Positions 20,637 to 64,000 of a DNA stretch of 64,000 nt are shown in pieces. A program made the translations under genes and the position numbers. Position 1 is the stretch's first letter. Every line of letters starts with the position of its first letter. Source of the DNA: Gautieria morchelliformis (taxonomy: Eukaryota > Basidiomycota > Agaricomycetes > Gomphales > Gomphaceae); NCBI GenBank assembly GCA_015179125.1, contig WHVA01000025.1, forward strand, positions 248,001 through 312,000, in the 5' to 3' direction. Below the pieces are notes generated by a model. It was not told where the DNA came from, searched no databases, and saw only the letters and a list, made by a program, of their open reading frames with translations.

Positions 20637-21667
20637 TGTCAAGATTGGTTTTTAGGTGTTAATATTGTGTATTAGTGAACACAGCGAATGCCCAAATAAC
20701 TTGTGCGAATAAGTATGCCGTTCGGCGAATACGTGAACCAATGAATGTTCACAAGATAAGAGGGTTGCCCGAACGGGGCTCGCCCTATCTACAGTCGTAG
20801 CGAAATAGCCTGTGACACTTGACGATGTAATGTGCAAGGTATCACGGGAGGGCTGTCTAAGTTTCGACAATCCCTTCGCCGGCGAAGGTGCTCCTTCGGA
20901 GCCATTCGCCAACAGCACAGAAAATAGTTCGAAGGCTAAGGTAACGAAGATGAAGTATGAGAACTCACCAGTGATGCCTAAGTCCTCTGCTGGTCGAAGA
21001 TAGAAATCTCCAAGAGAAGGCTCAAGACGATGATCACAGTGAGGTGAAGTTTGCACAAGATGGACGACGTATGATAATTGAACTGGGGAATATACATGCG
21101 AATGTAAACTACTTATATTGAATGCTGGTAAGGCATCAGCGAATAGGAAAGAGGCCGTCACGAGTCAGGGTTGGATAGGGGTGCGCAGTCATGATACTAA
21201 GGAGATGGAATAAACATACAATAGAGTAGGGGAGGAGTACGAACATGAGACGACGGAGAGTAAAGGTGGCAAAGGCACTTATGTACGAAACCATGTCTTG
21301 GGACCCGCATACATGCCACCCTGCATGGACTCTTCGTCCACTGGGTTGATCCCACACGACCGCTGGAAGGAACACCCCGCGAACATACTTTGGCCATACG
21401 AAAACCCAAAGGGGTTGGATTAAGAAGATGATGGGGTTAGTGATAAACCATCACGCCGGGTAAATGGTATTGATCGTATTTGATCGCGTGCCTGTTGGCG
21501 AAATGTGCAAGCAGCGAATAGCGGTTCAGAGAATGGGGCGAACAGCGAATAGAGAGAATGTAGAGGACGAGTGGTCGAAGGGTGAGGCAAACTCTGGCGA
21601 AGGTGCTAGGGAGTGATGAGGGGGAACATAGAGGCAGTGGGGTAAGGAAAATAGACAGGTCATGACA
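20637..21667 (-). repeat. 3' LTR of Gypsy element 2 (1031 bases)
   Basis: It has the same TGTCAAG to TGACA termini and length as the solo LTR 12609-13639. The polypurine tract AGGAGGGGGGTA (minus strand) lies directly against 21668, which fixes the orientation and shows that it belongs to the internal region on its right. Confidence 0.9.
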
Positions 21668-22670: not shown

Positions 22671-24132
22671 CTAAGTCTTGGGTTTCTGGGGGTACTTCGC
22701 ATGAAATTTGGTGAGTCTGCGAGCCGAATTGGTAACATTCGAAGAGGGTTCCCAAGATGTAGCGTTGGAGGTGTGTTCGTATCCCTTCCATTCTACTAGG
22801 TACTCCAATCGCTTTTGGCGAATGTGACTATCGAGGATTTTCGTGATCTCGTATTCGTCGGCGGAGTTGATTTCGATAGGAGGTGGGGGGTCCGCATGTC
22901 TACCTGGGATAGTAGACGTCGTGGCGGGTTCGAGCAGGGATACATGGAACACAGGGTGGATCTGGCGAAGGTCTAATGGTAAGCCTAAGCGAAACACATG
23001 AGAAGATATTTTAGCCGTGATAGGATATGGGCTGAGTCTTCGATGGTCGAGTTTCTTCGAAGGCCGTTTTGTGCAAATATTTCGCGAGTCGAGCCATACT
23101 CTATCGCTGACCTGAAACTCAGGGATCGGAATGCGGCGACTGGTTGTGGCTGAAGCGTACTGGGTAATTGATTTCTTAATTTGATCTTGAAGGTATTGAT
23201 GAAGGTCCTTGAGATCTGCCGACTGGCGATAAGCGTCTTCAGAAGCGACCGATGTGAGTGATACTTCGAGCTTTGGGTGGTAACCTTTGTTGGCGAAGAA
23301 GGGTGTGACCTGGGTCGCCGAATGGGCTGTGTTGTTGTAAGTGAATTCAGCGAGAGGCAGGAGGTCGACCCAATCGTCCTGCTGGTAGTTGATGTAGACT
23401 CGGAGGTACTGCTCAAGGATTTGGTTTACTCGTTCGGTCTGTCCATCGGTTTGGGGGTGGTAGGCTGTAGAAAGGTTGCCTTCGATGCCGAGGATTTCGC
23501 AGAGAGAAGTCCAAAATCGGGATGTGAAGTGCTTCCCTCGATCGGAGATGATGTTGCTGGGGCTACCATGCTTAGCGAATACGTGGCGCAGGAAGAGCAT
23601 CGCAACGTCCCCTGAATCGATGCCTGAGAATGTCAGAATGAACAGGGCCATCTTCGTGAGCCTGTCAACAATGACGAGGATCATATCGCGTCCATCCGAC
23701 GGGGGGAGTCCCTCGATGAAGTCCATAGAGATCGAATCCCAAGATCGTTGGCTGATGGGCAGAAAGCGAAGCAGACCGAAGGGTTTGTAATGAATGGATT
23801 TAGCGTGGCGACACTTGGAACAGGAGCCGATGTAGTTGGTGACGAAGGTGGACATGTTCGGCCAATGATACTGTCTCCGAATGTTCTTCATCGTTTTACT
23901 GATTCCTGGGTGGCCTGCTAACTGATGATCATGCAGCGAGCGAAGGATGTCCAAGCGAATATCATTATGATGGGGGACATACGTTCGCTGTTTGTATAAC
24001 AGCATTTTGCCATCCTCTCCAAGTGACCAGGGGTCTGACTTCACATTCAAAGGGGTGATTGCCAATGACTGAGACTGAAGATGAGTGATCTGGGCTGAGG
24101 ACAAGGGATCAGTCAACTGGCCCTGTTGGATG
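22671..24132 (-). mobile_element. Integrase and chromodomain of Gypsy element 2
   Basis: A long minus-strand frame shows the integrase zinc finger (HDHQLAGHPGISKT, CSKCRHAKSIH), catalytic core motifs (DSISMDFIEGLPPSD, NIISDRGKHFTSRFW, YHPQTDGQTERVNQILEQYL) and the C-terminal domain (IHPVFHVSLLEPA). It ends in a chromodomain (YEITKILDSHIRQKRLEYLV, EWKGYEHTSNATSWEP). Chromodomains of this type target insertion to heterochromatin. The N-terminal end is cut by Copia element 2. Confidence 0.95.
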
Positions 24133-24630
24133 TGTGGAGGACAGGAATTATAGGCAGTAGGTATGGACTTGTTATTCAAAAGAATAGACTAGAAATCAAT
24201 TCACTCTCTCAGTGAATTTAGTGGTCACTGTAAATATATTATACACTACCTAGAAATCAATTCACTACAGAGGATTTCTAGGTCAATTAATGCAAAGACT
24301 ACTAGACTAATTTACTTGCCTCTCTCAGTGAATTTAGTGGTCACTGAGAGAGGGGGAAATGTGTTCCACTGCGCATGTACTACTACCCGGCCCTTTAGCG
24401 CCCAAGAGCTCGCGCGTCGAAGTCATTTCAGACTCCGCTGGGTGCAGCCGCTTGTAAAAGTAGGAATAACAAGATGAAATAGAGAGATAAGGAATGAGTG
24501 GAAAATTTCGAAAATAACCAGAGAAATGGATGCATAATACAAGAACAATGTGAGAAGAAATTGGAAGGCCACACAACAAATTGGATATATTATGCTTGAT
24601 TTTGGTGCAGGAGCATAAATGCACCCAACA
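24133..24630 (-). repeat. 3' LTR of Copia element 2
   Basis: Its termini are TGTGGAGGACAGG and GCACCCAACA on the plus strand. It contains two direct copies each of TAGAAATCAATTCACT and of CTCAGTGAATTTAGTGGTCA. The second of these forms a hairpin CTCTCTCAGTGA...TCACTGAGAGAG. Confidence 0.95.
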
Positions 24631-24643
24631 CGCCCCCTCAAGC

Positions 24644-27600
24644 TTAATATATTCCAATTTGCTCGTTGAGAATCTTCACTCTAGGACTAGGAAGTCCTTT
24701 AGTGAGGATATCTGCCAACATTTGTTCGGTTGGCAAATAAACGAGCTTGGCTTGTTGATTTTTGATTATATCTCGAAGGAAATATAATCGGATGTCGAAA
24801 TGCTTGGTTCTCGTGTGTTGTTGGGTGCCATACGTGATGGCAATGGCTGATTGATTGTCTGAATAAACTTGGATGGGTCTGTTCAGTGATTGGAATATTT
24901 CAGAAATAAAATGGCGCATCCAAAGAGCCTCTTTGCCCGCATGGGTCAGGGCGACGAATTCGGCTTCAGTTGATGAGAGGGCTACTATCGACTGTTTCTG
25001 GCAACTCCATGAAACAGTGCCTCCATCAATCTGAAATAAGTATGCCGAATACGAACGCCTATGACTCTGTGAACCCCAATCCGCATCTGAATACCCCATC
25101 AAGCCGTCTCGATTTCTTCCAAGTGTGAGCTTGTAATGCTTCGTGCCTTTCAAATATTTGAAGACACGTTTGACTGCATTCCAATGTGTGCCACCTGGAT
25201 TTTCGAGGAATTGCGAGAGTAATGACACCGCAAATGCAATGTCAGGTCGAGTGGCTACAGCCGCCCACATCAGTGATCCTATAGCTTGCCTGTATGGAAA
25301 CTTCGACATGGCTTTCTTGCCTCTCTCTGTAGAAGGACATTGGTCTTTAGATAATTTTACGGCTGGATCAAGAGGCGTAGCATAAGTCTTTGCATCTTCG
25401 AGATTAAATTTTTTGATGATCTTCTCGATGTATGCAGGTTGTGAAATTGCAATGGTCTTCTTCTGCCAGTCTCTTTCGATTTTGAGATTCAATAGCCAAT
25501 GAATCTCGCCTAGATCTTTCATACTGAAGATCTGAGCAAGATCTCGTTTGACTTCGTCCAGGACTGACTGATTCTCAGCTGTGATGGTAAGGTCGTCCAC
25601 AGCTGTTGCAATGATCACATGCCCCTTTCCGCCACGTCTATAAAATACAGCCCCGTCTGTGGCTGACGTAGTGAATCCTAACTTGTGGAGTTCACCACTT
25701 AGACGTTTGTACCATTCTCTTCCAGATTGCTTGAGGCCGTAGAGTGCTTTCTTCAAAAGTAGCACTTCGCCTTTGTCTCCTGACTCATATCCATACGGCT
25801 GCTTCATGTAAATAGGTTCGGGCAACGTAGCATTGAGGTATGCATAGTCCACGTCCATTTGATGGATAGGCCAGTCATTCCTAGCAGCAATGGCGCATAT
25901 GATCCGTAGGGAGGATAACCGAGCAACAGGTGAGTATGTCTCATCATAGTCGACTCCAAACTTCTGTGTGAAGCCTTGGGCGACCATTCTCGATTTAGGC
26001 ATTATTGGTTTCCCTTCTGGATTACGCTTCCAAAGGTAGACCCATTTATTACCGACAATATTGGCTCCAGGAGGTGATTTGGCTCGTTCCCACACTCCCT
26101 TGTCGATTAGGGCCTCATACTCTTTGTCCATTGATTTCTTCCATATAGGATTATTCAGAGCTTCGTCTGCATTGCTAGGTTCAATTTGATTCAAATCCGG
26201 CGCCTTGTTATTGTTTTGACCGTCGGTTAGAAACGCACTGATGGCACACTCATAGCTACTGATGCCATCAATCTCGGAGGATAATTCTTGGTCGAATAAA
26301 ACTTCTTCATGGTCCTCAACGTCCTCGTAAGCTAGCGTAGTCATATGTGCGCCAGCTTGTCTCTGGGTTTGAGATCTTGTTACGGGACCTGATGGGGCCG
26401 GCTGCACTTGTTGTTGACGGATCCTTTCGCTTCTCCTTATCGGTTCAGCTTCTCTAGGTCTGTCATCAACTCCCTGAATAGGTTGCAGTTTTTCAAGATA
26501 TTCTTCCGGTGCACTTTCATCAATTTCTTCGATCTTTGCCTCTTCGCTGACTAAGCGACCGGGCACAGGCACTGATGCCGGAATGGCCTTCTTCTCTTCT
26601 CTAGACGTAGGTAGCTTGGATTCCTCAATAGAAATGATTGGGACCTTTCCCTTCTTCATCTCTGAATCAAATACAACGTTCCGCTCGACAGAAACTTTGT
26701 GCGAGTCAGGCCAATAAATATAATGACCATGGCTCTGCGCAGAAATTCCTATCCAACGAGCTCTCTTGGCACGAGCTGCCAATTTATCTCCCTGAGTGAT
26801 TTTAACATAAATTTCAGTTCCCCACGCGTGAATGTCTTTGAGATTCGGTTTTTCATGGTGAATCATCTCGTAGGGCGTTTTATCTGGTAGAGCTCTTGTA
26901 TGCGTCCTGTTCCTAAGATAATTGGCATGCTGTATCGCATAGCCCCATAATATCTTAGGAAGGCCTGATTCTAGCAGCATGGCACGAGTTCTCTCAGTGA
27001 GAGTTCGGTTCAGGCGTTCCGCAACACCATTGGACTCTGGTGTGTCGTGTACCGTCAACTGATGCTTCGTGCCTTGTTTGGCTAGATGCTGTTCGAATTC
27101 AGAGCTCATATACTCGCCCCCTCGATCAGAAACAAGTGCCTTGATGTGCACATTTCTCTGTCGAAGCATTAAAGCCTCGTAGAGCTTGTACTTTGAGAAT
27201 GCTTCTGATTTGTTCGCCATGAGATAGATCACCGATTCTCTTGAGTAGTCATCGATAAAGGAGACATAATATGACTTCTTATCGATCGTGAGGTGTCTTG
27301 CAGGTCCCCAGACATCAGAATAAATTCTGTCACCGAATTTTGATGTTCGGTCTCTGGGTTCTCGAGGAAGAGGTTTGCGCGCAATCTTGGCCTGAATACA
27401 CGCATCACAGACAATTCTATCGCCTGTGGAGCTCAGTTCAATGCCCAATATCATGCCATGATTTAATAGATGTTGTAGGGACTTCTGCGAGATGTGCCCC
27501 ATCTTTTGATGAATTTCCATGGCAGATAAACACATATGGGCTTGAGCACTTGGTGACTGGAGGTCTAGTCGATATAAACCATTGACCTTCGGTGCTTGCA

Positions 27601-28888
27601 TCAATACCTTTCCGGTAGCGTTAGATATTGTGCATTTCTGGCCACCGAGTCGAATGTCGTAGCCAGCATCATCGCACCGACCGATCGAGACGAGGGTAGC
27701 AGCAATTTTGGGTGCATAGTATGTATCTTGCAACGTGACTTCTACTGTTCTATCTCCAACCTTATTGGATAATACGAGCAGTCCTGAGCCGAAGGCATCA
27801 AAAGTACCTTTGTTGGCTGCTCGGATAGTCCTCGGCTGTGAGAATTGACAGTAGTCCCTCAATAAATTTTTGTGAGGAGTCATATGCGATGTCGTTCCGG
27901 TGTCGAGTATGACTATAACTCCTGAGGATGTGCTCAAATTGAAATTAGAGCACTCGTCGAAATTGGTGAAGGCAAGATGCCCATCACCACTTTCCTCAGA
28001 AGTAGACTGTTCTTCGGCAACATTCGCTTTTGCTTTACCCTTCTTCTTCTTCTTGCCTTTGGCTTTCTTCTTCTGACGTGGTCCTTGGCCTTCTTTACCA
28101 CCTCCTTTAGCCCAGCAATTTTCGATGGAATGTCCAGGCTTTTTGCAGTTGGTGCATACATGCGCCTTCTGCCCCTTCTGGTCCTTCTTAGTAGATGAAC
28201 CAATAAACACCTGCTCTTCTTGCGGGAGTGTTTTCTTCCTGTCATACTGAGCCTTTAGTACCCTAATAATATTATCAGGGACCAATGGCATCCCGCATTC
28301 TTCAAGCGAAGTGGTAAGGGCGTTCATGACTGCCTCATAGGATGGTGGAAGTGACGCAAGGATGATGTCCATGAATTCTTCTTCAGAAACTCTAGCTCCC
28401 ATCTCATTAAGACGAGCATATAGGTCTTGGGCCTTGTCCAAGTGATCTCTCAAGTCTCCATCCTCAGGACATCTCATACTGCGGAGTTGTCTCTGCAGGC
28501 TGGTGAGGACCATCTTGGGCTTTTTGGTCATCTCATTGACCAGTGCATCCCAAGTCTCTTTTGCTGTCTTCTGCTTCTGTAGCATCAGGGCTAATGACTC
28601 TGACACTGAGACAATGATTTGGGTCTTGGCTTGTCCTTCTCTAGCAAGGTATCTCTCCAGCTTCTCCTCGGCCTTATCCATCTGAGTTTCCTCAGCTTCT
28701 GTTAGAATATGGCCTGGGGGCATGACTGGAGGATCAGGAGGTCGAGTGACTCTCCCTTCTACATGCTTGAGCAGATTTTTGGACTCGAAATAGCTGATGA
28801 GAGTGGCTCGCCACAATGGCCAATTACTTCCATCAGTAGCAAGCTTCTCAACACCCAACAGCTTCTCAGAAGTGTCTCCGGGGCCCAT
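24644..28888 (-). CDS. Copia polyprotein (gag-protease-integrase-RT-RNase H), 1414 residues
   Basis: Domains run in Copia order. Gag is N-terminal (LATDGSNWPLWRATLISYFE), with a CCHC knuckle near residue 245 (CTNCKKPGHSIENC). Protease shows LDTGTTSHM near 325. Integrase shows an HHCC finger (HQKMGHISQKS, CDACIQAKIA) and core motifs SDVWGP, VSDRGGEYMSSEF and NGVAERLNRTL. A Ser/Glu-rich linker follows. Reverse transcriptase shows WVYLWKRNPEGKP, MDVDYAYLNATL and VDDLTI. RNase H shows YSDADWGSQ, SSTEAEFVAL and YSDNQSAI near the end. The start methionine lies five bases inside the 5' LTR edge at 28893. The frame is continuous from start to stop, which is unusual in this window and fits a young copy. 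Confidence 0.95.
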   Translation of the reverse strand: MGPGDTSEKLLGVEKLATDGSNWPLWRATLISYFESKNLLKHVEGRVTRPPDPPVMPPGHILTEAEETQMDKAEEKLERYLAREGQAKTQIIVSVSESLALMLQKQKTAKETWDALVNEMTKKPKMVLTSLQRQLRSMRCPEDGDLRDHLDKAQDLYARLNEMGARVSEEEFMDIILASLPPSYEAVMNALTTSLEECGMPLVPDNIIRVLKAQYDRKKTLPQEEQVFIGSSTKKDQKGQKAHVCTNCKKPGHSIENCWAKGGGKEGQGPRQKKKAKGKKKKKGKAKANVAEEQSTSEESGDGHLAFTNFDECSNFNLSTSSGVIVILDTGTTSHMTPHKNLLRDYCQFSQPRTIRAANKGTFDAFGSGLLVLSNKVGDRTVEVTLQDTYYAPKIAATLVSIGRCDDAGYDIRLGGQKCTISNATGKVLMQAPKVNGLYRLDLQSPSAQAHMCLSAMEIHQKMGHISQKSLQHLLNHGMILGIELSSTGDRIVCDACIQAKIARKPLPREPRDRTSKFGDRIYSDVWGPARHLTIDKKSYYVSFIDDYSRESVIYLMANKSEAFSKYKLYEALMLRQRNVHIKALVSDRGGEYMSSEFEQHLAKQGTKHQLTVHDTPESNGVAERLNRTLTERTRAMLLESGLPKILWGYAIQHANYLRNRTHTRALPDKTPYEMIHHEKPNLKDIHAWGTEIYVKITQGDKLAARAKRARWIGISAQSHGHYIYWPDSHKVSVERNVVFDSEMKKGKVPIISIEESKLPTSREEKKAIPASVPVPGRLVSEEAKIEEIDESAPEEYLEKLQPIQGVDDRPREAEPIRRSERIRQQQVQPAPSGPVTRSQTQRQAGAHMTTLAYEDVEDHEEVLFDQELSSEIDGISSYECAISAFLTDGQNNNKAPDLNQIEPSNADEALNNPIWKKSMDKEYEALIDKGVWERAKSPPGANIVGNKWVYLWKRNPEGKPIMPKSRMVAQGFTQKFGVDYDETYSPVARLSSLRIICAIAARNDWPIHQMDVDYAYLNATLPEPIYMKQPYGYESGDKGEVLLLKKALYGLKQSGREWYKRLSGELHKLGFTTSATDGAVFYRRGGKGHVIIATAVDDLTITAENQSVLDEVKRDLAQIFSMKDLGEIHWLLNLKIERDWQKKTIAISQPAYIEKIIKKFNLEDAKTYATPLDPAVKLSKDQCPSTERGKKAMSKFPYRQAIGSLMWAAVATRPDIAFAVSLLSQFLENPGGTHWNAVKRVFKYLKGTKHYKLTLGRNRDGLMGYSDADWGSQSHRRSYSAYLFQIDGGTVSWSCQKQSIVALSSTEAEFVALTHAGKEALWMRHFISEIFQSLNRPIQVYSDNQSAIAITYGTQQHTRTKHFDIRLYFLRDIIKNQQAKLVYLPTEQMLADILTKGLPSPRVKILNEQIGIY

Positions 28889-28893
28889 AACCC

Positions 28894-29391
28894 TGTGGAG
28901 GACAGGAATTATAGGCAGTAGGTATGGACTTGTTATTCAAAAGAATAGACTAGAAATCAATTCACTCTCTCAGTGAATTTAGTGGTCACTGTAAATATAT
29001 TATACACTACCTAGAAATCAATTCACTACAGAGGATTTCTAGGTCAATTAATGCAAAGACTACTAGACTAATTTACTTGCCTCTCTCAGTGAATTTAGTG
29101 GTCACTGAGAGAGGGGGAAATGTGTTCCACTGCGCATGTACTACTACCCGGCCCTTTAGCGCCCAAGAGCTCGCGCGTCGAAGTCATTTCAGACTCCGCT
29201 GGGTGCAGCCGCTTGTAAAAGTAGGAATAACAAGATGAAATAGAGAGATAAGGAATGAGTGGAAAATTTCGAAAATAACCAGAGAAATGGATGCATAATA
29301 CAAGAACAATGTGAGAAGAAATTGGAAGGCCACACAACAAATTGGATATATTATGCTTGATTTTGGTGCAGGAGCATAAATGCACCCAACA
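28894..29391 (-). repeat. 5' LTR of Copia element 2
   Basis: It is 498 bases and identical by eye to 24133-24630. It is followed on the element's strand by GGGTTATGGGCC, which overlaps both the likely primer-binding site and the polyprotein start. Confidence 0.95.
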
Positions 29392-35099: not shown

Positions 35100-35437
35100 A
35101 GTTTGTCTGCTGGGTTGATCCCACACGACCTATGGGTAGGATGTCCCGTGAATGCATTCCGGCCATACGAACACCTAAAGGGATTGGATTGGGAAGATGA
35201 TGGGGCCAGTGATGAACCATCACGCCAGGTAGAGGGTGTTGATCATGTTTGATGGTGTGCCTGCTGGCGAATGATACAAGGAGTGAATGGTCGTTTGGCA
35301 AATGGGGCGAAGGGCGAATGGAGAGAACATAGAGGAGGAGTGGTCGAAAGGTAGGGCGAACTCAGGCAAAGATTCAGGAGGAGCAATGAGGGGGAACATA
35401 GAGACAGCGAGGTAAGGGAAATAGATGGGTCATGACA
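35100..35437 (-). mobile_element. Partial LTR of the Gypsy element 2 family
   Basis: It matches the last 335 or so bases of the 1031-base LTR (compare 13300-13639), including GGGTTGATCCCACACGACC, AAGATGATGGGG, ACCATCACGCC and the GTCATGACA terminus at 35437. The rest of the LTR is missing on the left, where LINE-linked sequence begins. It is diverged more than the other two copies and is the oldest of the three. Confidence 0.85.
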
Positions 35438-36933
35438 GTTTTCTTCCTTCACCATAAGTGCCATTACTGCTTCATCAAGTCTATCATTCAACTCTTCTGC
35501 AGTAAGTTCTATGATTGAGTGAATAATTGGGCATGGGTTACATGGCTGCATGATTGAAAAATCTGCAGGGTAAGTGTTTCCTCTTTCACATACTTCAGCT
35601 ACTAATCTATTCACCAAGTCATTAATTGTGCAGCCGTCCCTATGGAGATTTACTTTGAACCTGTCCTTGATAAGCTGTCCAGGTGCATGTATATTCTTGG
35701 CACCCACTGGACATGCAGGATTTTGACAGTCCTCTTTTGCCTTTGATGGCTCACTCTGATTTTCACAGTACCATTACCCTTCAATTGCACCTCCACACCA
35801 TTTGCGGCAGTGAAGGACCTAGGACTCGTAAATGTGACAAAGTCATGTAAGTCCTCTATTTTTGGTGTGAAATTTCCTGACGTGGCTGTATCAATAAAGC
35901 AGCACCACGTAACAGGACTATCACCCAAAAACATTGATGTCTCAATGGCTGAGAATAAGCCACATGATGTAGAAGGGTTCCCTTTGGTCTTATTCTGGTC
36001 AACAGATGGTGAGTCCTTATTTGTGTCTTGATGCAAACCACCGTCCCTCTTCTTCTTCAGAGAGGGGCAATCCTTTGCAAAATGACCTTGACCTCCGCAA
36101 TTATACCATTTTCCAGAGTGTCCTGAAGACTTCTTTGGTTTCTCCCCTTCACGTCCTGTAAGATGGCCTCCTGCAAGGTCAAAGTCAAGGTCGTTCTGGG
36201 CTTCTGCTGCTTCTTCTTTGCTACAGCAAATGCTGAGCCCTCTGTCATGGTACACAGACCCTTCTTATCTCTACTTGATGCAAATTACTGACCAATTCTG
36301 CCACCATGTCATGATCCCAATCAATGATGTTGGTGACTGCGTCAAACTCCTCTGGGAGTGTATTGAAAGAAGCTGACTCTGGAATAGGATGGCCAGCTTC
36401 TATTAGCCTCAAACGTAATGAGTCCATCCTAGCTTTATGCTCCATGATTCCGGAACCATCGTATTGTATGTGAGTGATTTCTCCGAGCAGCGATGCTCTC
36501 GTATTTGCTAAACAGTTGCCATACACCATATGCAGTGTGTTCCATGCCAAACGTGAGTCGCAATTACCACAAATTGCCATCCACTGCTGATCTTTTTTTT
36601 TTTTTTTTTTTTTTTTTAATCCTATTTATCATCTTTTGGAGTTGAGCTCTATGTAAGACAGTAACTACACGTCGCTCAACATATGTATCCATTTCCTCTT
36701 TTGTCTCTATCTCTGCTAGTGCTGCTGATCTTCAATACGCAGATCTATCTCTGTGTATGTGCGCTCCTTCTGGAGTGCCCAAGCCTCTTCTAGCTCTAGC
36801 TCCTCATGAGTAGGAGCCTTCGAATCAGCACGTGTTGGACTGGGGAATCATCCTATCACGACCTCCCACTGGTTGAGAGATCTCAGCGTTGACTCCATGC
36901 TGCACTCCATGAAAAATAGTTATCATGGTGCAA
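35438..36933 (-). mobile_element. Ty1/Copia element 3 fragment (gag and protease), broken
   Basis: On the minus strand the gag start lies near 36897 (MESTLRSLNQWEVVIG). It is followed by PTHEELELEEAWALQKERTY, WNTLHMVYGNCLANTRASLL and LRLRLIEAGHPIPESASF. A zinc knuckle (CGGQGHFAKDC) and a protease-like segment (CFIDTATSGNFTPKIEDLHD, FTAANGVEVQLKGNGTVKIR) follow, and it ends with the integrase-proximal HAPGQLIKDRFKVNLHRDG near 35650. Integrase core and reverse transcriptase are gone. A short LINE end is inserted in gag (36592-36722). Several breaks are present; age is old. Confidence 0.82.
36592..36722 (-). mobile_element. Short LINE 3' end (or SINE) inserted in Copia element 3 gag
   Basis: A minus-strand poly-A tail (plus-strand T run at 36592-36617) follows about 105 bases similar to 2244-2380. 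The target duplication CTGCTGATC(TT) appears immediately before the T run and again at about 36722. The Copia gag reading resumes across the two sides. The body is more AT-rich than the copy near 2.3 kb. Confidence 0.72.
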
Positions 36934-37200
36934 TGTTGGAAATACAGTGTAGGCACTACCAGTACTTGACTGGTAGTTATTCATTTTATTGAGAGACATA
37001 GCTGGCATTACCACTGTAAATTGTGCATTCAGAAGGTAGGGCCAGGCCCATAACCTAAAGACAGTAGTTAAACCACAAGCTAGTTAGCTATACATCTTGT
37101 TATACAAGGTATACACTTACTTCCCAGTGGCAGCAAATAGACACTGGGAAGATTGCTACTATACATACACGCAGACATATATGCATGTCTCAGAATGAGT
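36934..37200 (-). repeat. Probable 5' LTR of Copia element 3 (right end uncertain)
   Basis: It begins TGTTGGAAATACAG just upstream of the gag start. TTGCACCATG lies between, in the position of a primer site. A partner LTR is not in the window, so the far end (near TGTCTCAG at about 37190) is a guess. Confidence 0.45.
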
Positions 37201-44062: not shown

Positions 44063-46878
44063 ATGCGTTTCTGCCTGCCTCTCGCAGTGCTGACCTTCCT
44101 TCCCACCTCTTTCGCTTCAGAATCGCAGCTTCCCTTCTCTCCCCTTCATCCTCCAGTCATCCAGTCAACGACCCTGATCGACGCCCTGGATGGGAACTAC
44201 ACACGTCTTATTCGTCTGCTGCAGCGCTCACGCCTTGTCCCAACTCTCAATCGGCTCAACGGAAGCACATTCTTCGCTCCAATAAATGACGCCATCCAGA
44301 AGCATCCGCTTTGGAACGCTGCTAGCGCGTCGTCCACTGACTCATTCGCGAGTCTCGCAGACAATGTACAAGAAAAGCTGCGCCAGCAGCTACTCTACCA
44401 TCTTCTTAATTATTCAGTCGTCTCGCCCCCCACCCTGCAGCAGCCACAGGTCCACAAAACTCTCCATTTTCCTCGCACTCCTATCGGGCCTCCCTCAAAT
44501 CATCCACCGTCGAATTCGCCGTGGCTCCCTGTGCCTGGTGGCTCACTAGGTGGAGAGCCTCAGAGACTGAGGTGGGCAGCTAGAGAGGGCGCTACTTGGA
44601 TTGGCACAGACTACGCCGGAAACGGGGGCATACAGATCGTGAGGCCGCCAGTGGAGACGGGAAATGGCATCGTGATAGGTATTGACGGTGTCTTGGACCC
44701 TCCAAGTGACCTCAGTGAGTGTTCGCGCATCTGGTGGGTGCCGTCTAGCTTACATGTGACTCCCCAGCTCATGTTGTGTCACAGCAGCCTTCTTTATCAT
44801 ATTTCCATAAGATCCTTCCCTCAAGTATGATGGAAGCACTGAGTAATTCTACGGAATTGACCCTATTCATGCCTCAAGACTCAGCATGGGACGACCTCCA
44901 CCCAGTCGAAAGGCTTTATCTGGAGAGCAAGTTTGCCGATGACGATATCCAAAAGATCCTGGACATGCATTCGGTTGTGAAACATGGCGTACGGTGGTCA
45001 GACACGCTCGAAGACTCTAAACAACGTGAGCATCCATTTAACACGAGTATATGCGCCCCTTTACCCTTACCCCTGCAGTAACAACTGTTTACGGTAACAA
45101 CCTGACCCTCCACGTGTCATCTAACGTGACGAATGTATCTTCTTCATCCATCATCCAGCCCGATGACTATGCGTCCAATGGTGTCCTCCACGTTGTTTCG
45201 TCCTTGCTGATCCCTCCAGAGAATCGGCAGCTCACGCCCGAGAAATATCTTCTTGCGCTTAATTGCACCAGTTTCGTGTCGTTACTACGTTCTGTCCAGC
45301 TCTCCTCTCTTGTCAACACCACCAATACCTCTTACACTATTCTTGCGCCCCGCGATGACGTTATCACTTTAATAGGCGATGACTCATTACCAAGTCCGGG
45401 TAGCGAAGAGCTTGAACACATGTTGAGATACCACTTCTTGCCTGGGCAGTGGACAGCAGAGGATCTCCGTGACGGTATGCTCCTGGAGACCGCCTTGGAG
45501 GAACCTGGTTTGAACGGTGGTAAACAAGTTCTGGATATCACTGTTACCGGTAAGGGGTCCAATCGCGAGTTGACATTTGGAGGGGCAGCAGTAATAGGGG
45601 GCAAACCCTGTAAGCGTTTCAAGGTTGTCATGCTTTCCCTGTACTGATGGTGTTTCAGTGGTTATCAACGACACAATTATATACCTCATAACTCGAGCCT
45701 TGATACCACCTGCGGATGCGCTTGTCACTGCACTGCCTTCTATTGAGTTTTCCACTTTCCTGGCGTCTGTATTTTCCTCGTCGCTCGCTGAGAAACTCAA
45801 GAAATACCCCAACACGACATTGCTTATTCCGCAGAACGCCGCCTTTAAAAGACTGGGGCTGGTGACAACTCATCTGCTTCTTCCGTCTTCCACGCCGGAT
45901 TTGGAGAAGATGATCCAACATCATGTTGTGACAGAGGTTGCTTATCGCGACGCTTTATTCAACGGCTCCCGGAAGTCATATCCAACCCTCGAGGGCTCGG
46001 ATCTTCACATTGAACGTAGTGATAATGGAAGCGTATACATTTCTCCTAGCGGGGGTTGGGTTGGTTTACAGGGTAGTCTTGGCTCAGGGAACTTGCTCAC
46101 ACGAACTGGTGTCATTCACGAAGTCTCGAGTGTACTGCTGCCCCGCAGTCTCGATATCTCCATTGGGAAGCTTGCTTTAGCGGCAAAAGGGAGCACGATG
46201 GCCAGCCTTGCAGTCAAGGCCGGCATGGAATGGATTCTTAATGGGACTACACCACCAGCAGGGTCCGAATGGGCTGATGCCGGTCTTACAGGATCTGGTT
46301 GGACCCTACTGTGCCCTACCGACAACTCGTTGAAAGGAGTTAACATGTCGCAGTTGTGGAATGACGTAGAGGCGATGCGGCGTCTAGTCTCGCAGCATTT
46401 GATCCCCGCGCCTGGGAGAAAGACTTCCGACATGGCACGAACGCTTGCAGAGTCTGGCGACCCAAATAGACCGATCTATCTTGACGGAAAGGCGACATAC
46501 TCGACGTTGCTCTCGCACAACTCTGTGTATGGTGACATTGTGTTCCGACCTGTAGACAGCAAGAACCCATCCTCGGGATATCTGGTTGGGATCAAAGACG
46601 CTCGAGGCACGGATGGACAAAATGATTGGGCAAATGTGCTCTCGTGGGGTCGAAGTACGACTGGAGCCGATGTCGGTGGCGTTGTACAGATCGATCGGCT
46701 GCTCGTGCCTTACCGCCCAGCTTGGTGGATCGAGTATGGTCCGCCTGCGGCTGTGGCTGTGGGAGGTTTGGTACTGATGGCAGGCTTTTTCTGGGCGGTA
46801 ACTCACTTCTGGCATCGAGAGACTGGGGAGGCGACGTATGAACCTGTTGGAGGGTTTGACAGAGAAGATGATGACTAG
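44063..46878 (+). CDS. Fasciclin (FAS1) repeat membrane protein, 886 residues
   Basis: It starts with a signal peptide (MRFCLPLAVLTFLPTSFA). Five FAS1-like repeats follow, at about residues 32-217, 218-350, 350-497, 500-645 and 645-815. FAS1-type blocks recur: STFFAPINDAIQKHP, ELTLFMPQDSAWDDL, SYTILAPRDDVITL, NTTLLIPQNAAFKRLG, GVIHEVSSVLLPRSL. A membrane segment near 828-850 (AVAVGGLVLMAGFFWAVTHF) and a short acidic cytoplasmic tail end it. Predicted introns are 44715-44767, 45026-45078 and 45610-45658; exons sum to 887 codons in frame. Many Asn-X-Ser/Thr sites fit a luminal or extracellular face. The layout resembles yeast YLR001C and fission yeast Fsc1, a vacuolar-membrane protein needed for autophagosome fusion; that role is inferred from family likeness. 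Confidence 0.88.
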
Positions 46879-56050: not shown

Positions 56051-58161
56051 TCACTTTCCGACTCTGCATAACCCATCACTGTCCCAGTTTTCTGAGCCAA
56101 CCCCTGCGCCAACAATGAAAAGAGCCTCAGGATCATAATTATTCTTGATCTCGCTGAGACGCGCAAAATTAGGTCCAAAGAAAGTTGTCTGGAAATCTGG
56201 TTCGCGGACATCTGCCTCGTTCGAGTAGGAGCCGCCCCCCGGACCTGCTAACGCGCCGAGGATGGGAACCTGGCTGTGTGTCATATCTTCAAGGATCGTC
56301 TCGACCTCGTCCGGTGTTGTTGAATCAAAAAACTGTGAAGCAATGATGACCTTAATTCGTTCGTAACGTAACCATTTGAGTGATCGATAGCCCCGCAGGC
56401 GTGTGGTGGACTCACGTGTGTTTTAGCCGTACGCCATTTGGGAGTGACTGCAGAGCTTATGTTCGCATTTCTGGACACTTGCCCACCTGCAACCAGACAT
56501 TCGGTGATACTATAAGTTCGTGAGTCTCTAACAGTTCTCTGAAATATATTGCAAACGAACCTTATTATACCACCATCAAGTAGTGCCTTGTACGCGGCCC
56601 CAATCGCTGTCGCATTTTGACGATAAACGTCATTCGATAAGAGCCGCGACCCAAGAACTCCTTCACCCCCTGCTTGATCATCAAGAGTTTTACTGATCAG
56701 TATATCGTTTATGTTTGACTGATTGATTGAGATTTCGAAAGAGAACCCAAGTTCAGACACTGCATTCAAGAATGGCGCGAGCGATGCGTTCGCAGCTGCG
56801 ATAGTTGTGTTGGGGATATAGGTTTCAATAAACCCAATGAACGTCGGCGGAGTAGCGGCCCAACTAAGGAATTGACTAGGGTGCAATAGATCCATGTCGA
56901 ATATATGTTGCGCATGCAACGTGCTCACTGTGCTCACATCTTCCGTCGAGTTCAGTATAATGGTCGTAATATGATGGATAGCATCGAAGGTCGGGAATAC
57001 GCGGAAAGTTGCACTGATGATGACTCCCCAACTACCAGCACCGCCGCCTCGCAGGGCCCAGAAAACTGCACGCACATGGTAAACAGCGGCATGAAATCAA
57101 GTATGAATAGATCACTTACGATCAGGATTCGAAACTTCGTTGGCAGTTACAAGGCTCCCGTCTGCAATTACAATCTGGAACTCTGCGTAACGCATTAGGG
57201 TGTGTAAAAACACAGGTCTCTGTTTGTACCTAAGGCATTGTCTGCGGCAAGGCCAAGAGTGGGAGAAATCACGGAATGACCAGCTCCTTGAATGTATCCT
57301 CCTGCAGCGACCGCAGTGCTAGATGTTGCCCCCACGAATATTTTTCCTTGGGTTTTGGCGGCCAGATACAGTGTATGCATGCCCACACCACTACCAACAG
57401 TAACGGCACTACCCATATTTATTCCCCCTACTTGGAAAGACTCGTGGAAGGTGATATCCTGGAAGTTCCGTGTCCACAGAAGTAACGAATTCTTCGCAGT
57501 GGAGCGACCCAGAAGATCATGACCTGAAGCCTTAACTGCGACCCTGAGATTGTGAGCCTGAGCAAAGCGTACACCAGCCTTCCATAAGGGTTAGAGTGGA
57601 TAAATTCATTGAGAATATTGATCGAGCTCTCACCTGGATGTGTGCAGCCGTAGTAGCATTCACACCGAAAATAGGAACATCTCCTTGCCCGCAGTTGGTG
57701 GAGTTCCGGAAACAGAGCGATGGCGGGTTCGAATCATAGTCCTGACGTCGAGAACCGCAATTATAAGAGTTATACAGGTATAGTAATCCATCACAGTACC
57801 TGCTCCCAATTGACCTGTATATCCATAGCGCATACAAGGTGACATCAGTGTTCCTGATGAATAACGAGATGCTCACTTGAAGCATGGAACCCGGAATATT
57901 ATCTCTGAAAATACCACTTTGCCACTCGGCATCTGGACAGCCTCCCGGGAGGGTCATGCAAAGCTTTGCGGAAGGCACGACGTTTATTAAACGACCATCG
58001 ACTGAAGAATTGAATGCGGCCAGTTGATCACTTGTTGGGAAAGAGGAATCACCTGGCTGCGAGCGACATTTAGGTGATGACACTGCAGCTACCACGGAGG
58101 TCAAGAAAAGCTGGAAAAGCTGGAAGACAAGACGTTGTGAAAGGGCGAGACGAAGCATCAT
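56051..58161 (-). CDS. Secreted FAD-linked oxidoreductase (berberine-bridge type)
   Basis: The start MMLRLALSQRLVFQLFQLFL is a signal peptide. The FAD-binding (PCMH) domain shows LRVAVKASGHDLLGRST, with the histidine that usually carries FAD, then GAGVGMHTLYLAAKTQG-like VGSGVGMHTLYLAAK, GGYIQGAGHSVISPTLGL and FQIVIADGSLVTANEVSNPD. WALRGGGAGSWGVIISATFR follows, then a substrate domain. The BBE-type C-terminus SYSNEADVREPDFQTTFFG and EIKNNYDPEALFIVGAGVGS ends at TGA 56051-56053. At least six short introns are needed. Several Asn-X-Ser/Thr sites fit secretion. Such fungal enzymes oxidise sugars, alcohols or secondary metabolites with O2; the substrate cannot be told. Its last bases and 3' flank are copied at 1879-2195. 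Confidence 0.9.
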
Positions 58162-58347
58162 CGTACATCACCAATCCTGAGCTCGGTGACTTTATAGAAA
58201 GCGTGGATTTCAGATCCAGACCCTGTCAGTACATGTGACGGAGAACTTGAAGCGCGCGGCGCGCCTGTTCTTTGTTTATAAAGTAAGTATCCACGTCGCC
58301 GCTCGGACGTTGGGAAAAACGCGCCGCAAGCCGAGAGCACGCACGGC

Positions 58348-58454: not shown

Positions 58455-59881
58455 AGCGGCCTTACGTAAGTTTTGCCTGCAAGAAGTCGCTCAAGCTGAT
58501 TAGATCCGGTCAGACTTTCACGGTGTACAGTTCAAATTCACTGCAAAGTTCATCATCTGGAGGCTGTTTATGTCAAAGTATCAGACTAGTCTAACGCTAC
58601 ATCGGCGAGATACTGCATACTTACAGAGCATTCCCCGTATTGGTTTTTACCTGCGTTACGACGCACAAGCGCTTGTCGGGTTGAGAATTAGGCAGCGCCA
58701 GTTTTTTTTTCTGAAGCGTGGACTTGAGAGCACCCCGGCCGTTGACACTCCGTCCATGGACGACGATGTCGTGGCTTGTTGTCCGTGTCCGTGTCTGTGT
58801 CCGTGTCCGTCATGCTGCTCGTTGTAACTGGCGAGTCAGGTCGGTGTGCTGTTTGTCTTAGTTTGGTGTGGCCGCGCTCTCTTCGCTCGGAATCCCCAGT
58901 ATTGGGATGCAAGGAACCTTCACGAAATTCAATGGAACAGTGCTGTGGAAACATGTCTGACGTTGAATCCAACCAGGTTAGCCCGATACAATCTAATTAT
59001 CGTATGACTGCGAAGCACCTTGGAAGTCCAATATATTCTCGCTGCATGTCGTCATTCTAATAATATCATACTAAGTTATAAAACTGCGACCACGTCGCAC
59101 CGATCCCCTCAATCGGGCCACCGCGAACAGCTCTACGTCACCAGACAGCTGATACACCGAATGCACCATGTCATGGATACCATGTTGTTGTGCCCCATGT
59201 CTTAGCTAGTCTTCATCCTCGGCCGACCTCTTCCACTACATCCAGGACGCCGAATTAGGAGCTTTCTCGCGTTTCCATATCCATAAATACTGCCACGATG
59301 ACATGACGCCTCTACTGAGACTATCTAGCATCGCCATAGAATCAAAACCTCGCGCACACTCAGGGCCTGGAACTTGCAATTTTAGGTCATAATCTTCTGC
59401 TTCGTCATGTTCATCTTTTCCCATCCTCATATATCTCACGGTGGCGATGTGGAACGATGCCATCTGCATCGGTCGTCTTCGTCATATGAGGCGAGCTTGT
59501 CGCGGTTTGCTTTCGTTGTTCTGCTGACGCTCACTCACTTACATGCCGCTCGACTTCAAATTCCTTGAAAGGAAAACCCTTCTGAATCACTTCCAGCCTA
59601 TGCCAGCCCGATGTAATAAACAATCTGCCGAAATTCCTCAGGCGGCTAACTATATATGATGCTTCTACGTTGCCTTAGCTGAATTGATTCTATCATCCAT
59701 CAGTCACGTCCCCTTGGCAAAAATCACTGATATAGAATGTTATATGCTGTGAATATCTATGACCTGGCAGCACCCATGCCAAGAATCTTATATATACACG
59801 TTCCGGGGTCTGCTACTCTAACCCACATCGCTACGCAAACCTTAGTACCTCGTCTGCATTCCAGTTTTTCTTTCTTATATC
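58455..59881. other. No gene recognised
   Basis: It contains a short GTGTCC microsatellite at about 58780-58811 and several short frames. A 77-residue minus frame (59236-59469) has protein-like composition but no recognisable motif. Confidence 0.5.
58780..58811 (+). repeat. GTGTCC microsatellite
   Basis: Five to six near-perfect GTGTCC/GTCCGT units in tandem. Confidence 0.8.
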
Positions 59882-61627
59882 ATGTCTCAGGCGGACCCCT
59901 CGGCTGTTATCCAGGCGCTATCAGACATGTACGTACTTACCACACTGAGTGAGATGCAGAAGAACTTACCTGGACTAGCTTTGCGGTCAACTTTACCATG
60001 GTCGCAGCGTCCGGTATGCGTACATGACCCCCTATCTAATTCCATGATTTCCATAGCTTGTTTACAGCACTGCTCATCTACGACACTCTTCTCACTATGC
60101 CATCTGAGATCAAGCACATTTGGTGCAAGACCGTCAAAATTGGCACCATTCTCTATTTATTTGCTCGTTACCTGTCCATCGTTGGGTCTCTTGTTATCGT
60201 ATGTGACATTTTATCTGCCGTGTCCTTTGAGGTATATTATGACAATGCTCTCATGTGTAACACCCTTACTGATTAGAATGAGTATCTAGTATGACTTGTA
60301 TTCTTTATGAAGAAGCAATCTAGAGACTCATATATTCAAAGGAGATGTAAGATTATAAGTCACCTAGTTAATGTTTTAGATACTCTTATTCTGATTGGTG
60401 TACAGGGTGAGTGATTATACCCATATATTTCTCAGGCAGAAGGATCAACACATTTTATTTCCTAGGCCTTCTCCTAGCTCGCACCTATGCTATTTCCCTT
60501 CAGAATCAAAGAGTTTTGGGTGTCCTTGGGCTGCTTATTCTTGGGGCTACTATCATTAATGTGGTATGTCCCTACGCAGGCTTTGTATAAATAGCATAAA
60601 TTCATTTCACTGCATATAGGATATTTCTGTTTTGGACAACTGCCCTCCCCATGGTTCACAATTTAATACATTGACATTATACTGAGTCTGATTTTCTGCC
60701 TAGATTAACACTGACAAATCCTTCAGGTGTAAGATCTAGGGACCTGTATTTGTCCAATTTGTCTCTGAATACCTTTGACAGTGTCTGCCATCAATAATGT
60801 TGCTGTAATCCTTTCTGACACTGGAGTTGTGATAGTAACCATTCTGAGCTCAATTCAAACCCTGAGGCTTTGGCAGAAAGGTGATATTTGGGATAAGAAA
60901 CTTCTTATTAGTCTAGTGATTTACCAAGGTGAGCATACAACATGTTGCTTATATACATGGACATATCACTAATATACAGGCAAGGCTTTGTCAGATATGG
61001 GTATGGAATATTATTCCTATGATATTTCATATGTCTGATTCATATTCAGATTTGTGCTTACAATTACTTTGACTAGTACTATCACAGCAAAGGTACACTT
61101 ACTTATAAACCTGTTGAGCTTCAGAGTTTACTTGATGTTCTCTCACAATTCAGGTGTTAAGGGTATGTAAGGTATTGACCATGATAATAAAATGCTAATA
61201 TCAGCTCCTTTGTGACATGAAGTCAAATGTTGCAGGCTGCTTAAACAATCTCCAGAACAGGTATCTTCTCACCAATTTAAGAAGGAAGATATGATTGTAC
61301 TAACAGTGCACATATAGCTTGTCAATAATTATTGTCTGCCAATTCCACTTAACTCTCAAAGAGAGACACAGTCAACGTAACAACCCCTCATTACCCTCTC
61401 TTTCATTCACCAGCTTCCAAGCAGCCAGACGAAGTGTCCACAATGCCATAGTGGCTGAATTTGGGAACCCTTGCTTGAGCCAGGATTTTAGTGCTGAGGC
61501 CTTAGAGCACAATGAGGCTGATCAGGAAAGCCAGCAGTCACCTGGTGAGGCTGGGTCAACTGGAATAGAGTTGGATGAATTTCCTTGGGCAACTGGATAT
61601 CCTGGAGATGTAGAAATGGCCAGCTGA
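59882..61627 (+). CDS. DUF6533-domain membrane protein
   Basis: The N-terminus MSQADPSAVIQALSD is followed, after short introns, by the DUF6533 block: LFTALLIYDTLLTMPSEIKH, IWCKTVKIG, TILYLFARYLSIVGSLVI. Later exons give further membrane segments: GLLLARTYAISLQNQRVLGV, LLILGATIINV, AINNVAVILSDTGVVIVTIL and FVLTITLTST. The hydrophilic tail has AARRSVHNAIVAEFGNP and an acidic end to the stop at 61625-61627. This seven-helix-like family is expanded in mushrooms; its role is unknown. Exons 1-3 have normal CpG content, but from about 60250 CpG nearly disappears while the membrane frames stay readable. Exon borders between 60.2 and 61.3 kb are not all certain. Confidence 0.75.
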
Positions 61628-62339
61628 TTGTCTCCAGTGAGTAGTTAGCATCTCCTTCAGGCATGGGTTAATGGTTCAGTAGGATCTGGAAGAACAGCGG
61701 AGGGTTAAGGACAGCATCCAAGCCAATGAGTCATAGCCATGATTCTACTATAAACCCCCTAGCAGAGTGACACACAGCAACTTACATCAACCTACCTTTC
61801 TAATCTATTGCACCCTTGGAAATTGGTAGCAATAGAAAATGTAGCTATTTGCTCACTCCCATACCATCAAAAACCTGTAGATACATATATATTCTGTGAT
61901 GTTTTGAGTTTGACTGTGTTCATAATTCATTATTACTGTGCTTACTGAAAATATTATTTGTGTTTTGTTGCTGGGAGTCAATGAACTGTGTACAGAGTAG
62001 GGAAGAATGACACAAAGCCACAGACAGTCATGCACATAATTCCCCAGCAACATGCCATTGTGGTTGAAGGACAAACAAACTAGACCAACCTTCCTTCCAC
62101 GGTCAGAAGGGCTGGGTGCAGAGGGGCAGTCAAGCACATTGAAGCACAGGGTCAAGAGCAGAAATATCAGAGAACGACAAACAGCTCCAGACAGTCATGC
62201 ACACAACCTCTGTGTTCCACCTTGATCAAAAAGAGAGTGAAAGGTTGGATCTATCAATGGAAGGGGGCCACGTCACATCAGGCTTGCTGCCCACATAGGC
62301 ATCCCCAAAATATAAATGGGGGATGTTTGGGAACATCCC
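61628..62339. other. Intergenic inside the CpG desert, no gene recognised
   Basis: Two copies of the word CAGACAGTCATGCACA (about 62022 and 62193) and a small hairpin CATCCCC...GGGGGATG near 62302 are the only structures seen. Confidence 0.45.
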
Positions 62340-63131
62340 TGAATGCATTCAAGAACAGGTCAAGCAGATGGCTGCTGGCCATCAGGTGGACAGAACATGG
62401 CACCCATTACACTAGACAGGGAGTTACTGGATTGAGACATCAATTTATGCTCAAGGGCTGTAATGTGACCTAGTTGGTCTCTCACAAAGTGAGAGACATC
62501 ATCAGCAGGGTTGGGGTCAATATCCCTTATGGACCTGGACAGAACATGCTTCTTCCTAAGAAGGCTGTCCTGTATGTCTTTTTCAGCACATGAGGTGATA
62601 AGAAGGCAGAGATTAGATGGCAGTTTTGCTGCTTCACTGCCAAGGACAGACAAGAGACCCTTGTGAGATTCCTCGTCCCTGCTCTCATCCAATGCATCAA
62701 TAACCATCACCGTCAGTCCAATGGTGGTTAGGCCCTGAGCAGGACCTAGAATGAAGTTCTCGCTGCTCCCGAACAACTTTCAATAATGACACTTTGTGTG
62801 CTGGATCTAGATCAGCCAGACCAGGAGCAATTGTGCTTAAGAAATTTTTGGGGGAACGTTCTGCCTTATGAGCATGGTCAAAACAGTACAACAATCCGAG
62901 ATGTTTGAGCCTGCCAAATCATCAAGTGACCTCATGAGCAATCGCAGATTTGCCAGCACCTGCAACATTGTTCAAGAAAAATATCCAGGGGATGTTGTCA
63001 CTATCCTGGTTGACCCAGATCTCCCCAACAACGTTCTCATGACCCAGCAGACAGCCTTTTTTAGGATCATATCCAGCTCCTGCTGCATAGGGCATGTCAT
63101 TAAGCTGAACTGCTCCAGCTGGTAGCAAGTG
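62340..63131 (-). pseudogene. NACHT-type NTPase relic (NLR-like)
   Basis: On the minus strand the typical mushroom NACHT entry reads AVQLNDMPYAAGAGYDPKKG, IPWIFFLNNVAGAGKSAIAH (P-loop GAGKSA), then CFDHAHKAERSPKNFLSTIA and LADLDPAHKVSLLKVVREQR. LTTIGLTVMVIDALDESRDE (Walker B) and AAKLPSNLCLLITSCAEKDI follow. The segments lie in different frames with stops between, including one directly after AHEVT. The N-terminal effector and C-terminal repeat domains are missing. It is therefore a truncated, decayed NLR-like gene. The loss of CpG (many TG/CA in place of CG) fits decay by C-to-T change. Confidence 0.78.
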
Positions 63132-64000
63132 TAAGACAGTGACACTGTCTAGTTACAGCTGTGGTTCACACAAGTGCCCACAAGTGCAAACAGTTATTGT
63201 TCTTTCCCTTTGTGACTAACCCTAAAAAACCGTTGCTTAATACTTGCTGTATCTTATCGCCAGTGCCATAGATAATATGATCATGCAACGTCCTCGCCGG
63301 CGGCGACGACCTCAGGTTGTATCAGTTGGAGTGGAAGCGTTGGCTGCACTGGTAGGGGATTTTGCGGAGGCGCAGCGACATTGAGTTAGGCTCAGGAATG
63401 GGCTACGGATTATCAAATCCATTCCTACACAGTAATTGTAAGGAAACACTGTGGGTTATATTGTCTTGAGGCCTTGACGGTGAGACGAGGTAGGATTTCT
63501 GTTTATATAAACACTCTCACACACCATCTAGTCCATACGCAGCGTCAAGCATATCATACATGCCATGGGTGCAGGGTTTGTGCTGTGGTATTTCTTCCAT
63601 GTCATCGTCATCGTCATCATCGCCCACTCCCTCCATTTTCAAACCGTGTGGCACTTCAACCTCGCTCGAAGATGGGACAGCGCTATCATCAGTTCTCACC
63701 CCTATGGTCCACATCTATCGGAATCTCACTGCCATGGGTGCCGCCTGAACTACCTGGTTGAGGAATCGGACCCTGATTAATCGCACCATTCCCGCACAAT
63801 ATGCATGCTTCCCCCATGGCAGACTCAGCATCAGGGGGCCCATTGCCTCATAGAGTGGGAACCCTTTGGCAGCATGGTGGCATGCTTAGGATGTGCCTGG
63901 ATACATGTTAGCAGTCAAAATATGTGTCGGCATGGAGTGCCACCTACTGCGAGGTATGACTGCCACACAGCATCATCCGTGGCTGCATTGATGCCAGATT
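63132..64000. other. No gene recognised
   Basis: It begins with the palindrome AGACAGTGACACTGTCT at about 63133. From 63290 CpG returns, with a short Arg-rich plus frame (MQRPRRRRRPQVVSV). A minus frame at 63517-63714 has an Asp run (GDDDDDDDMEEIPQH) but no recognisable motif. Confidence 0.45.

Follow-up and report, generated by a model that had tools for sequence, protein, structure and literature searches.

A recurrent intragenic CpG cliff in an expanded DUF6533 subfamily of Gautieria morchelliformis

Known methylation systems and the locus studied

In animals and plants, CG methylation of gene bodies covers the body of a gene, spares its 5′ end and leaves a loss of CpG dinucleotides, with TpG and CpA, in heritable DNA. 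Methylation induced premeiotically (MIP), which is known from Ascobolus and reported for Coprinopsis, is set up through repeat pairing during the sexual cycle and methylates repeats without the CpA mutation seen in repeat-induced point mutation (RIP), and the transposons of basidiomycetes carry CG methylation. Fungi are described as having mostly lost gene-body methylation, or as having it at negligible levels, with some exceptions (PMC13297926). In the rust Puccinia striiformis, CpG gene-body methylation is linked to lower allele expression (PMC12129025). Here we describe a CpG desert in the basidiomycete Gautieria morchelliformis, which cuts through a DUF6533 gene and covers its body and 3′ part. 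The window, i.e. the whole stretch of DNA analyzed, comprises 64,000 nucleotides (contig WHVA01000025.1, positions 248,001 to 312,000), and the desert occupies positions 60250-63270 within it.

The locus shares with gene-body methylation of animals and plants the covered body, the spared 5′ end and the loss of CpG, but one repeated subfamily is concerned here and not the other genes looked at. As in MIP, repeats are targeted and CpA mutation is missing; MIP would be expected to affect the whole repeated stretch, however, whereas here the first 500 bases were exempt in the aligned copies. The CpG-biased decay of Copia, long terminal repeat (LTR) and NACHT-WD40 pairs in this genome resembles the methylation of basidiomycete transposons, from which the locus differs by its target, a subfamily of protein genes with mostly open exons, and by an edge that is fixed within the gene. 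P. striiformis is likewise a basidiomycete with CpG methylation reported over gene bodies; there it was measured by nanopore sequencing, with a difference around the start codon, whereas an evolutionary scar that spares the start was found here (PMC12129025). A family-wide CpG cliff of such a kind was not reported in the literature searched, which left most subscription journals out of reach.

The CpG cliff in the DUF6533 subfamily

The desert contained 18 CpGs, where 136 would be expected from composition alone and 109 after scaling by the observed/expected ratio (O/E) of the whole window, which was 0.80. Within 60501-63000, CpG O/E per 500 bases was 0.05-0.26, and TG plus CA reached 1.37-1.65 of expectation compared with 1.16 in the whole window. 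At the left edge, the count fell from 15 CpGs in the 360 bases 59890-60249 to 2 in the 1080 bases 60250-61329 (3 in an earlier count by eye), and at the right edge 27 CpGs followed in the 530 bases after 63270. The original prediction had described a sharp step near 60.25 kb, an abrupt return of CpG near 63.28 kb and frequent TG and CA in between, and these counts agree with it. It had also placed the left edge inside a DUF6533 gene that is still readable across the edge, and had the desert cut through a NACHT relic as well. The frame 60040-60273 matched PF20151 (DUF6533) with E = 2e-11 and 44.2 bits against a cut-off of 24.1, exons were still open beyond the cliff, and the relic, in the right stretch, proved to be a fragment of a NACHT(NPHP3_N)-WD40 gene. 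DUF6533 is described as specific to basidiomycetes and as part of a seven-helix membrane protein, SNB1 (PMC10949477). The features of the gene unit and of the desert are given below; the ATG, the exon numbers and the exon bounds are manual readings of splice sites and frames.

59744..60240, plus strand: 5′ part of the DUF6533 gene unit, promoter-proximal, with the ATG at 59882 and exons 1-3; repeated and CpG-normal
60073..60195, plus strand: exon 3, with most of the DUF6533 domain, the last exon before the cliff (PF20151 match and frame reading)
60185..60278, no strand: CpG cliff, interquartile range over 27 aligned copies, median 60241 (change-point fit per copy)
60250..61996, plus strand: CpG-depleted body and 3′ part of the gene unit, repeated in the same genome
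60468..60563, plus strand: exon 5, in the desert (LLLARTYAISLQNQRVLGVLGLLILGATIINV; splice sites and frames)
60784..60927, plus strand: exon 7, in the desert (SAINNVAVILSDTGVVIVTIL...; splice sites and frames)
61051..61092, plus strand: exon 9, in the desert (splice sites and frames)
61415..61627, plus strand: last exon with the stop codon, in the desert (open frame 61304-61627)
61997..63133, minus strand: sequence that replaces the 3′ tail, with the NACHT-WD40 fragment at 62443-63133; CpG-decayed here
63201..63300, no strand: right edge, return of CpG (0 CpGs in 63101-63200, 5 in 63201-63300, 7 in 63301-63400)

The genome of the same organism (122 Mb in 1113 contigs) was searched with 60250-63270. 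At least 45 matches were obtained (best 40 of 614 candidates), with 40 main places on 29 contigs. Most of the listed matches started at or near query position 1 and ended at about 1350-1760 (about 61600-62000), with 77-92% identity, and many repeated genomic places matched from about 59744 onward. Twenty-nine loci were fetched, of which one was the window itself and two duplicated others, leaving an alignment of the window and 26 copies (27 in total) on 21 contigs. Loci are designated L and contigs C in the following.

CpG was higher before than after the fitted change in 26 of the 27 aligned copies, and the mean CpG O/E was 0.77 in the 5′ part and 0.15 in the body. The cliff lies about 0.36 kb downstream of the ATG and appears to fall where exon 3 ends or within intron 3. 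In 24 copies the fitted change fell within 60034-60317; it was placed at 60502 in L036 and at 60528 in L018. Five further DUF6533 genes were picked from 150 PF20151 places. Three of these (L055, L056 and L058) are diverged and belong to the same clade by exon sequence, and all three showed the drop directly after the DUF6533 exon. L055 and L056 had 77-81% DNA identity to the window and to each other, and the body of L058 differed from the window by 19.5%. The other two, L057 and L059, carry a different motif and are presumably canonical DUF6533 genes; neither had a CpG drop. The window gene is a member of an expanded DUF6533 subfamily, and the cliff is a property of this subfamily.

The spared 5′ end and the covered body, at the same place in many genes, form the arrangement of gene-body methylation as judged from CpG loss. 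The original prediction had taken the edge for the boundary of a local domain. This did not hold: the edge belongs to the subfamily and recurs at a near-identical gene position in copies on 21 contigs, which led to the rejection of a local chromatin domain. We consider it probable that the desert is the scar of long-term CG methylation over the bodies of this one expanded, repeated subfamily, with the 5′ ends spared.

The expansion of the DUF6533 family as a whole is very large, with at least 150 DUF6533 places in the PF20151 search, all above the cut-off (best 150 of 637 candidates). Several copies each were located on contigs such as C166, C206, C1, C284 and C448.

CpG decay within and around the gene unit

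The NACHT-WD40 fragment at 62443-63133 matched at least 36 places besides the window and a sister locus on contig C576, with 76-85% identity (best 40 of 270 candidates). This sister, C576:9304-12180 (L002, L020), duplicates the desert locus together with its NACHT fragment, at about 92% identity. Eight NACHT-WD40 copies fetched from elsewhere had a CpG O/E of 0.70-1.24 per 600 bases, and one comparison copy contained a 746-codon frame with NPHP3_N and WD40 domains. Identity to L022 was 96-98% in six of seven copies and 87% in L021, which still keeps 46 of 57 CpGs. The NACHT(NPHP3_N)-WD40 units, e.g. L021-L028, are at least 3.2-3.7 kb long and appear to represent a recently spread gene resembling NOD-like receptors, or a mobile unit carrying one.

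Of 54 CpGs present in the majority of the eight copies, 19 were TG and 18 CA in the window fragment, 7 were kept, and 10 showed other changes or gaps. Per base in CpG, 19 of 52 C and 18 of 51 G had changed by transition, compared with 5 of 134 (C>T) and 7 of 128 (G>A) outside CpG. The eight comparison copies, left out in turn, kept 45-54 of 54-57 CpGs each. Six of the majority CpGs were kept in the C576 sister fragment. Between the window and this sister, 9 CpGs were lost in only one copy and 2 were lost in opposite ways, which indicates that the decay continued after duplication of the locus. By its base changes, the decay of the fragment is symmetric CpG decay as left by 5-methylcytosine (5mC), not RIP of the CpA type, and a CpG-specific loss to nearly equal TG and CA is what long-term CG methylation would leave.

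The original prediction had proposed a methylated or RIP-like domain, of which the erasure of CpG by C-to-T change stands and RIP in the usual sense does not. Repeat hypermutation by RIP or a RIP-like process would fit the repeated targets and the C-to-T change on both strands. It is nevertheless very improbable, since the NACHT fragment has changed chiefly at CpG, the body has no excess of TA (O/E 0.88), the first 500 bases at the 5′ end of the repeat are exempt, and exons 5, 7 and 9 contain no stop in any of the 27 copies. RIP was rejected on the sequence context (CpG instead of CpA, TpA not raised) together with the spared 5′ part.

The turnover of CG was compared with that of GC in 276 pairs of 24 copies, with L005, L014 and L035 left out. 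For copies about 11% apart, 0.27 of CG was kept in the body versus 0.77 of GC; the corresponding values for the 5′ part of these pairs were 0.62 and 0.74. At a distance of 13-16%, they were 0.20 versus 0.69 in the body and 0.58 versus 0.70 in the 5′ part. From the closest bin, which holds only 2 pairs, to the farthest, the log ratio of CG to GC was 5.8, 4.9, 4.3, 3.5 and 2.5 in the body and 3.2, 1.6, 1.5, 1.55 and 1.4 in the 5′ part. These data bear on the possibility of an inherited scar, in which the body of the founder gene lost its CpGs long ago, the copies inherited this state, and nothing acts now. The copies do descend from one gene and have a common edge, and T in TG changes to C just as often as other T does. 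However, CG turned over 2.5- to 5.8-fold over GC in the body (1.4- to 3.2-fold in the 5′ part), and the NACHT fragment, CpG-rich elsewhere, appears to have decayed at this locus, also after the duplication. The turnover and the fragment together make a plain inherited scar unlikely.

In the 27 copies, no stop was present in exons 5, 7 and 9, and frameshifted copies numbered 2, 1 and 0, respectively. The last exon had a stop in the column frame in L008, L017 and L033 and an off-frame length in L014, L018 and L037; with L014 left out, it was frameshifted in 2 of 26 copies. Singleton changes in five exons of 26 copies comprised 231 amino-acid and 98 silent changes (225.5 and 97.9 expected), which is the neutral ratio. 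Singleton stops numbered 6 versus 11.6 expected, divided into 5 versus 2.7 in exon 3 and 1 versus about 9 in exons 5, 7, 9 and the last exon; the exon 3 stops trace to L035, whose 5′ end is unrelated. The ratio of nonsynonymous to synonymous substitution (dN/dS) between pairs of copies was 0.5-0.8. The selection signal on the exons is mixed, and it is suggestive only of genes that may mostly be kept open and be weakly constrained or diversifying. Selection on the transcript or the protein, or codon bias, could in principle have removed CpG, as the desert spans most coding exons. Introns, 3′ sequence and the NACHT fragment are depleted as well, however, and exons 1-3 are spared. The non-coding stretches already contradict such an explanation, which we regard as hardly credible.

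On the 3′ side, a right edge was fitted in the 19 copies whose flanks were long enough. In 16 of them, CpG returned no more than about 0.5 kb from the point where similarity to the window ceases. The edge lay within about 80 bases of the similarity end in L004, L006, L032, L033, L038, L039 and L043, 146 and 232 bases past it in L041 and L040, and 400-520 bases past it in L003, L005, L007, L008, L035, L036 and L037. Outlying values were 1293 in L002 (the sister of the window locus), 570 in L042, and 672 before the similarity end in L034. A 3′ tail in common with L007 extended to about 540 in L008, 510 in L005, 360 in L036 and 340 in L033, and over more than 1.1 kb in L003, where positions are counted in the compared stretch and the first 100 are still within the similarity to the window. 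In a rough fit, the end of the tail and the CpG edge were about 75 bases apart in L008 and 130 in L005 and L036; in L003 and L007 the CpG edge falls inside shared tail sequence. The window and its C576 sister do not have this tail; after about 61997 they carry in its place different sequence that contains the NACHT-WD40 fragment.

Stretches poor in CpG are frequent in the genome. The background sample consisted of 11 loci with 51,050 bases (one of only 1,050 bases) at hand-chosen, not random, places, several of them on contigs already present in the match lists for the desert gene. O/E was below 0.25 in 9.3% of its 204 windows of 250 bases, and some of the CpG-poor runs were Copia or other transposon-like sequence. 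The lowest CpG count per 1700 bases was 5 inside the desert. Over the first 60.2 kb of the window the minimum was 26, and ten 5-kb samples taken on other contigs gave minima of 17-77. No desert of equal depth and length was seen in the sampled loci outside copies of the DUF6533 gene.

The original prediction had remarked that the transposons to the left show no comparable CpG loss. No run there is as deep as the desert, but four weaker CpG-poor runs were present at 23901-24400, 28251-29150, 35351-36450 and 36701-37200 (O/E 0.34, 0.28, 0.24 and 0.29). The first two include LTR parts of one Copia element. Since three of the runs lie in or overlap Copia-type sequence, the transposons here are not free of CpG loss.

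28251..29150, minus strand: weaker desert, LTR/gag end of the Copia element; both LTRs 100% identical over 498 bp
35351..36450, minus strand: weaker desert, Copia gag-type region split over several frames (CpG O/E and frames)

The Copia element at 24133-29391 has two identical 498-base LTRs and one open gag-pol frame of 1430 codons, and is thus a very recent insertion. Its LTR/gag end is CpG-poor and most of its pol part is not. Another LTR pair (12608-13639 and 20636-21667) is about 1032 bases long and 91.4% identical, and 5 of the 11 loci of the background sample (L047, L049, L050, L052 and L053) contain sequence like it. At 8.6% divergence, CpG in this pair had changed 2.05-fold over GC. 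The CpG bias was 4.7-fold in the short repeat pair 19459/5043 (11 CG), 3.8- and 5.3-fold in two segments of a Copia pair with about 7% divergence (the second value from 19 CG) and 1.35- to 2.84-fold in pairs of NACHT-WD40 units; the repeat pair 37253/41778 had none (1.08). The transposon and repeat pairs compared differ by only about 1-12%. The milder CpG loss of the transposons is probably a matter of age, as identical LTRs and low divergence mark the pairs as young and leave little time for the loss to show. An open frame with a Fasciclin domain (E = 5.9e-20) lies in a CpG-normal stretch at 45598-46875.

Several observations weigh against the scar of long-term CG methylation as the explanation. 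The reference for the NACHT fragment is the majority of eight copies, seven of which are at least 96% alike and represent a single young group, and the direction of the changes is an assumption. The pairs in the turnover comparison are not independent, the 5′ part also changes with a CpG excess of 1.4- to 3.2-fold, and the body and the 5′ part differ least in the farthest bin (2.5 versus 1.4). The share of C at body TG columns was 0.045 versus 0.044 at other T columns, so that no fast erasure of new CpGs is seen there, and the TG/CA excess in the body (1.30/1.39) was barely above that in the 5′ part (1.30/1.31). Among the 27 aligned copies, L014 shows no cliff and matches the window as far as 60619, and L035 is little informative, as its match starts only at 60210 and its edge lies at the junction. 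The copies are related, and the shared edge is thus partly a matter of descent. The 3′ edge had weak support (log-likelihood gain of at most 5.1) in L033, L034, L037, L041, L042 and L043. Finally, runs of 400-base windows with a CpG O/E under 0.25 account for 17% of the bases of the 51-kb sample.

Targeting, machinery and meaning

Genes for a methyltransferase and an SRA reader, as long-term CG methylation would need, are present in the genome. Three loci scored above the PF00145 cut-off, that on contig C671 also with DNMT1-RFD (PF12047), and an SRA protein (PF02182) is encoded on C298. The scar could have arisen as follows. The cell would treat repeated gene copies as targets of CG methylation, and the mark would be kept by maintenance methyltransferases and the SRA protein. 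Methylated C would deaminate to T on either strand, turning CpG into TpG or CpA. The promoter and the first 0.36 kb or so would remain unmethylated, probably in promoter-type chromatin, and CpG would survive there. The mark would stop near the end of the gene unit, and sequence landing inside it, such as the NACHT-WD40 fragment, would decay too. We infer 5mC as the cause from the sequence pattern, chromatin as the protection of the 5′ end, and repetition as the trigger because the other genes looked at were spared. Simple repetition alone is left undecided by the NACHT-WD40 units that are 96-98% alike and CpG-normal, since these are young and their change is CpG-biased.

For the targeting step, the main rival is ordinary gene-body methylation of the animal and plant type, coupled to transcription and independent of repetition. 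The depletion starts about 0.36 kb past the ATG and stops close to where the gene unit ends, and so roughly tracks a transcription unit. On the other side, gene-body methylation did not appear as a general property of transcribed genes among the few others examined, which were CpG-normal: the window frames at 56284-58167, the two canonical DUF6533 genes and both P450 (cytochrome P450) loci are not stripped, nor are the three methyltransferase loci (O/E 0.53-1.35). The NACHT fragment was hit as well, and fungal gene-body methylation is described as generally negligible (PMC13297926). Transcription coupling without a role of repetition therefore seems improbable to us.

A further reading of the methylation scar is possible, although we hold it with considerable doubt. 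CG methylation confined to gene bodies would manage well over a hundred DUF6533 genes with their promoters and first exons open, and could silence members, insulate them from recombination or select among them. The proteins concerned would probably be seven-helix proteins, and, equally tentatively, the regime may have lasted long enough to strip the bodies of CpG with most exons still open.

If long-term CG methylation is the cause, the subfamily would be a clear exception among fungi, its protein genes being scarred in their bodies but not at their 5′ ends, in a form readable from sequence alone. One could then ask how the opening few hundred bases of a repeat escape a genome-defense mark. 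The pattern also suggests a cheap screen, as a CpG drop at one constant place in the gene may flag methylated families in other fungal genomes.

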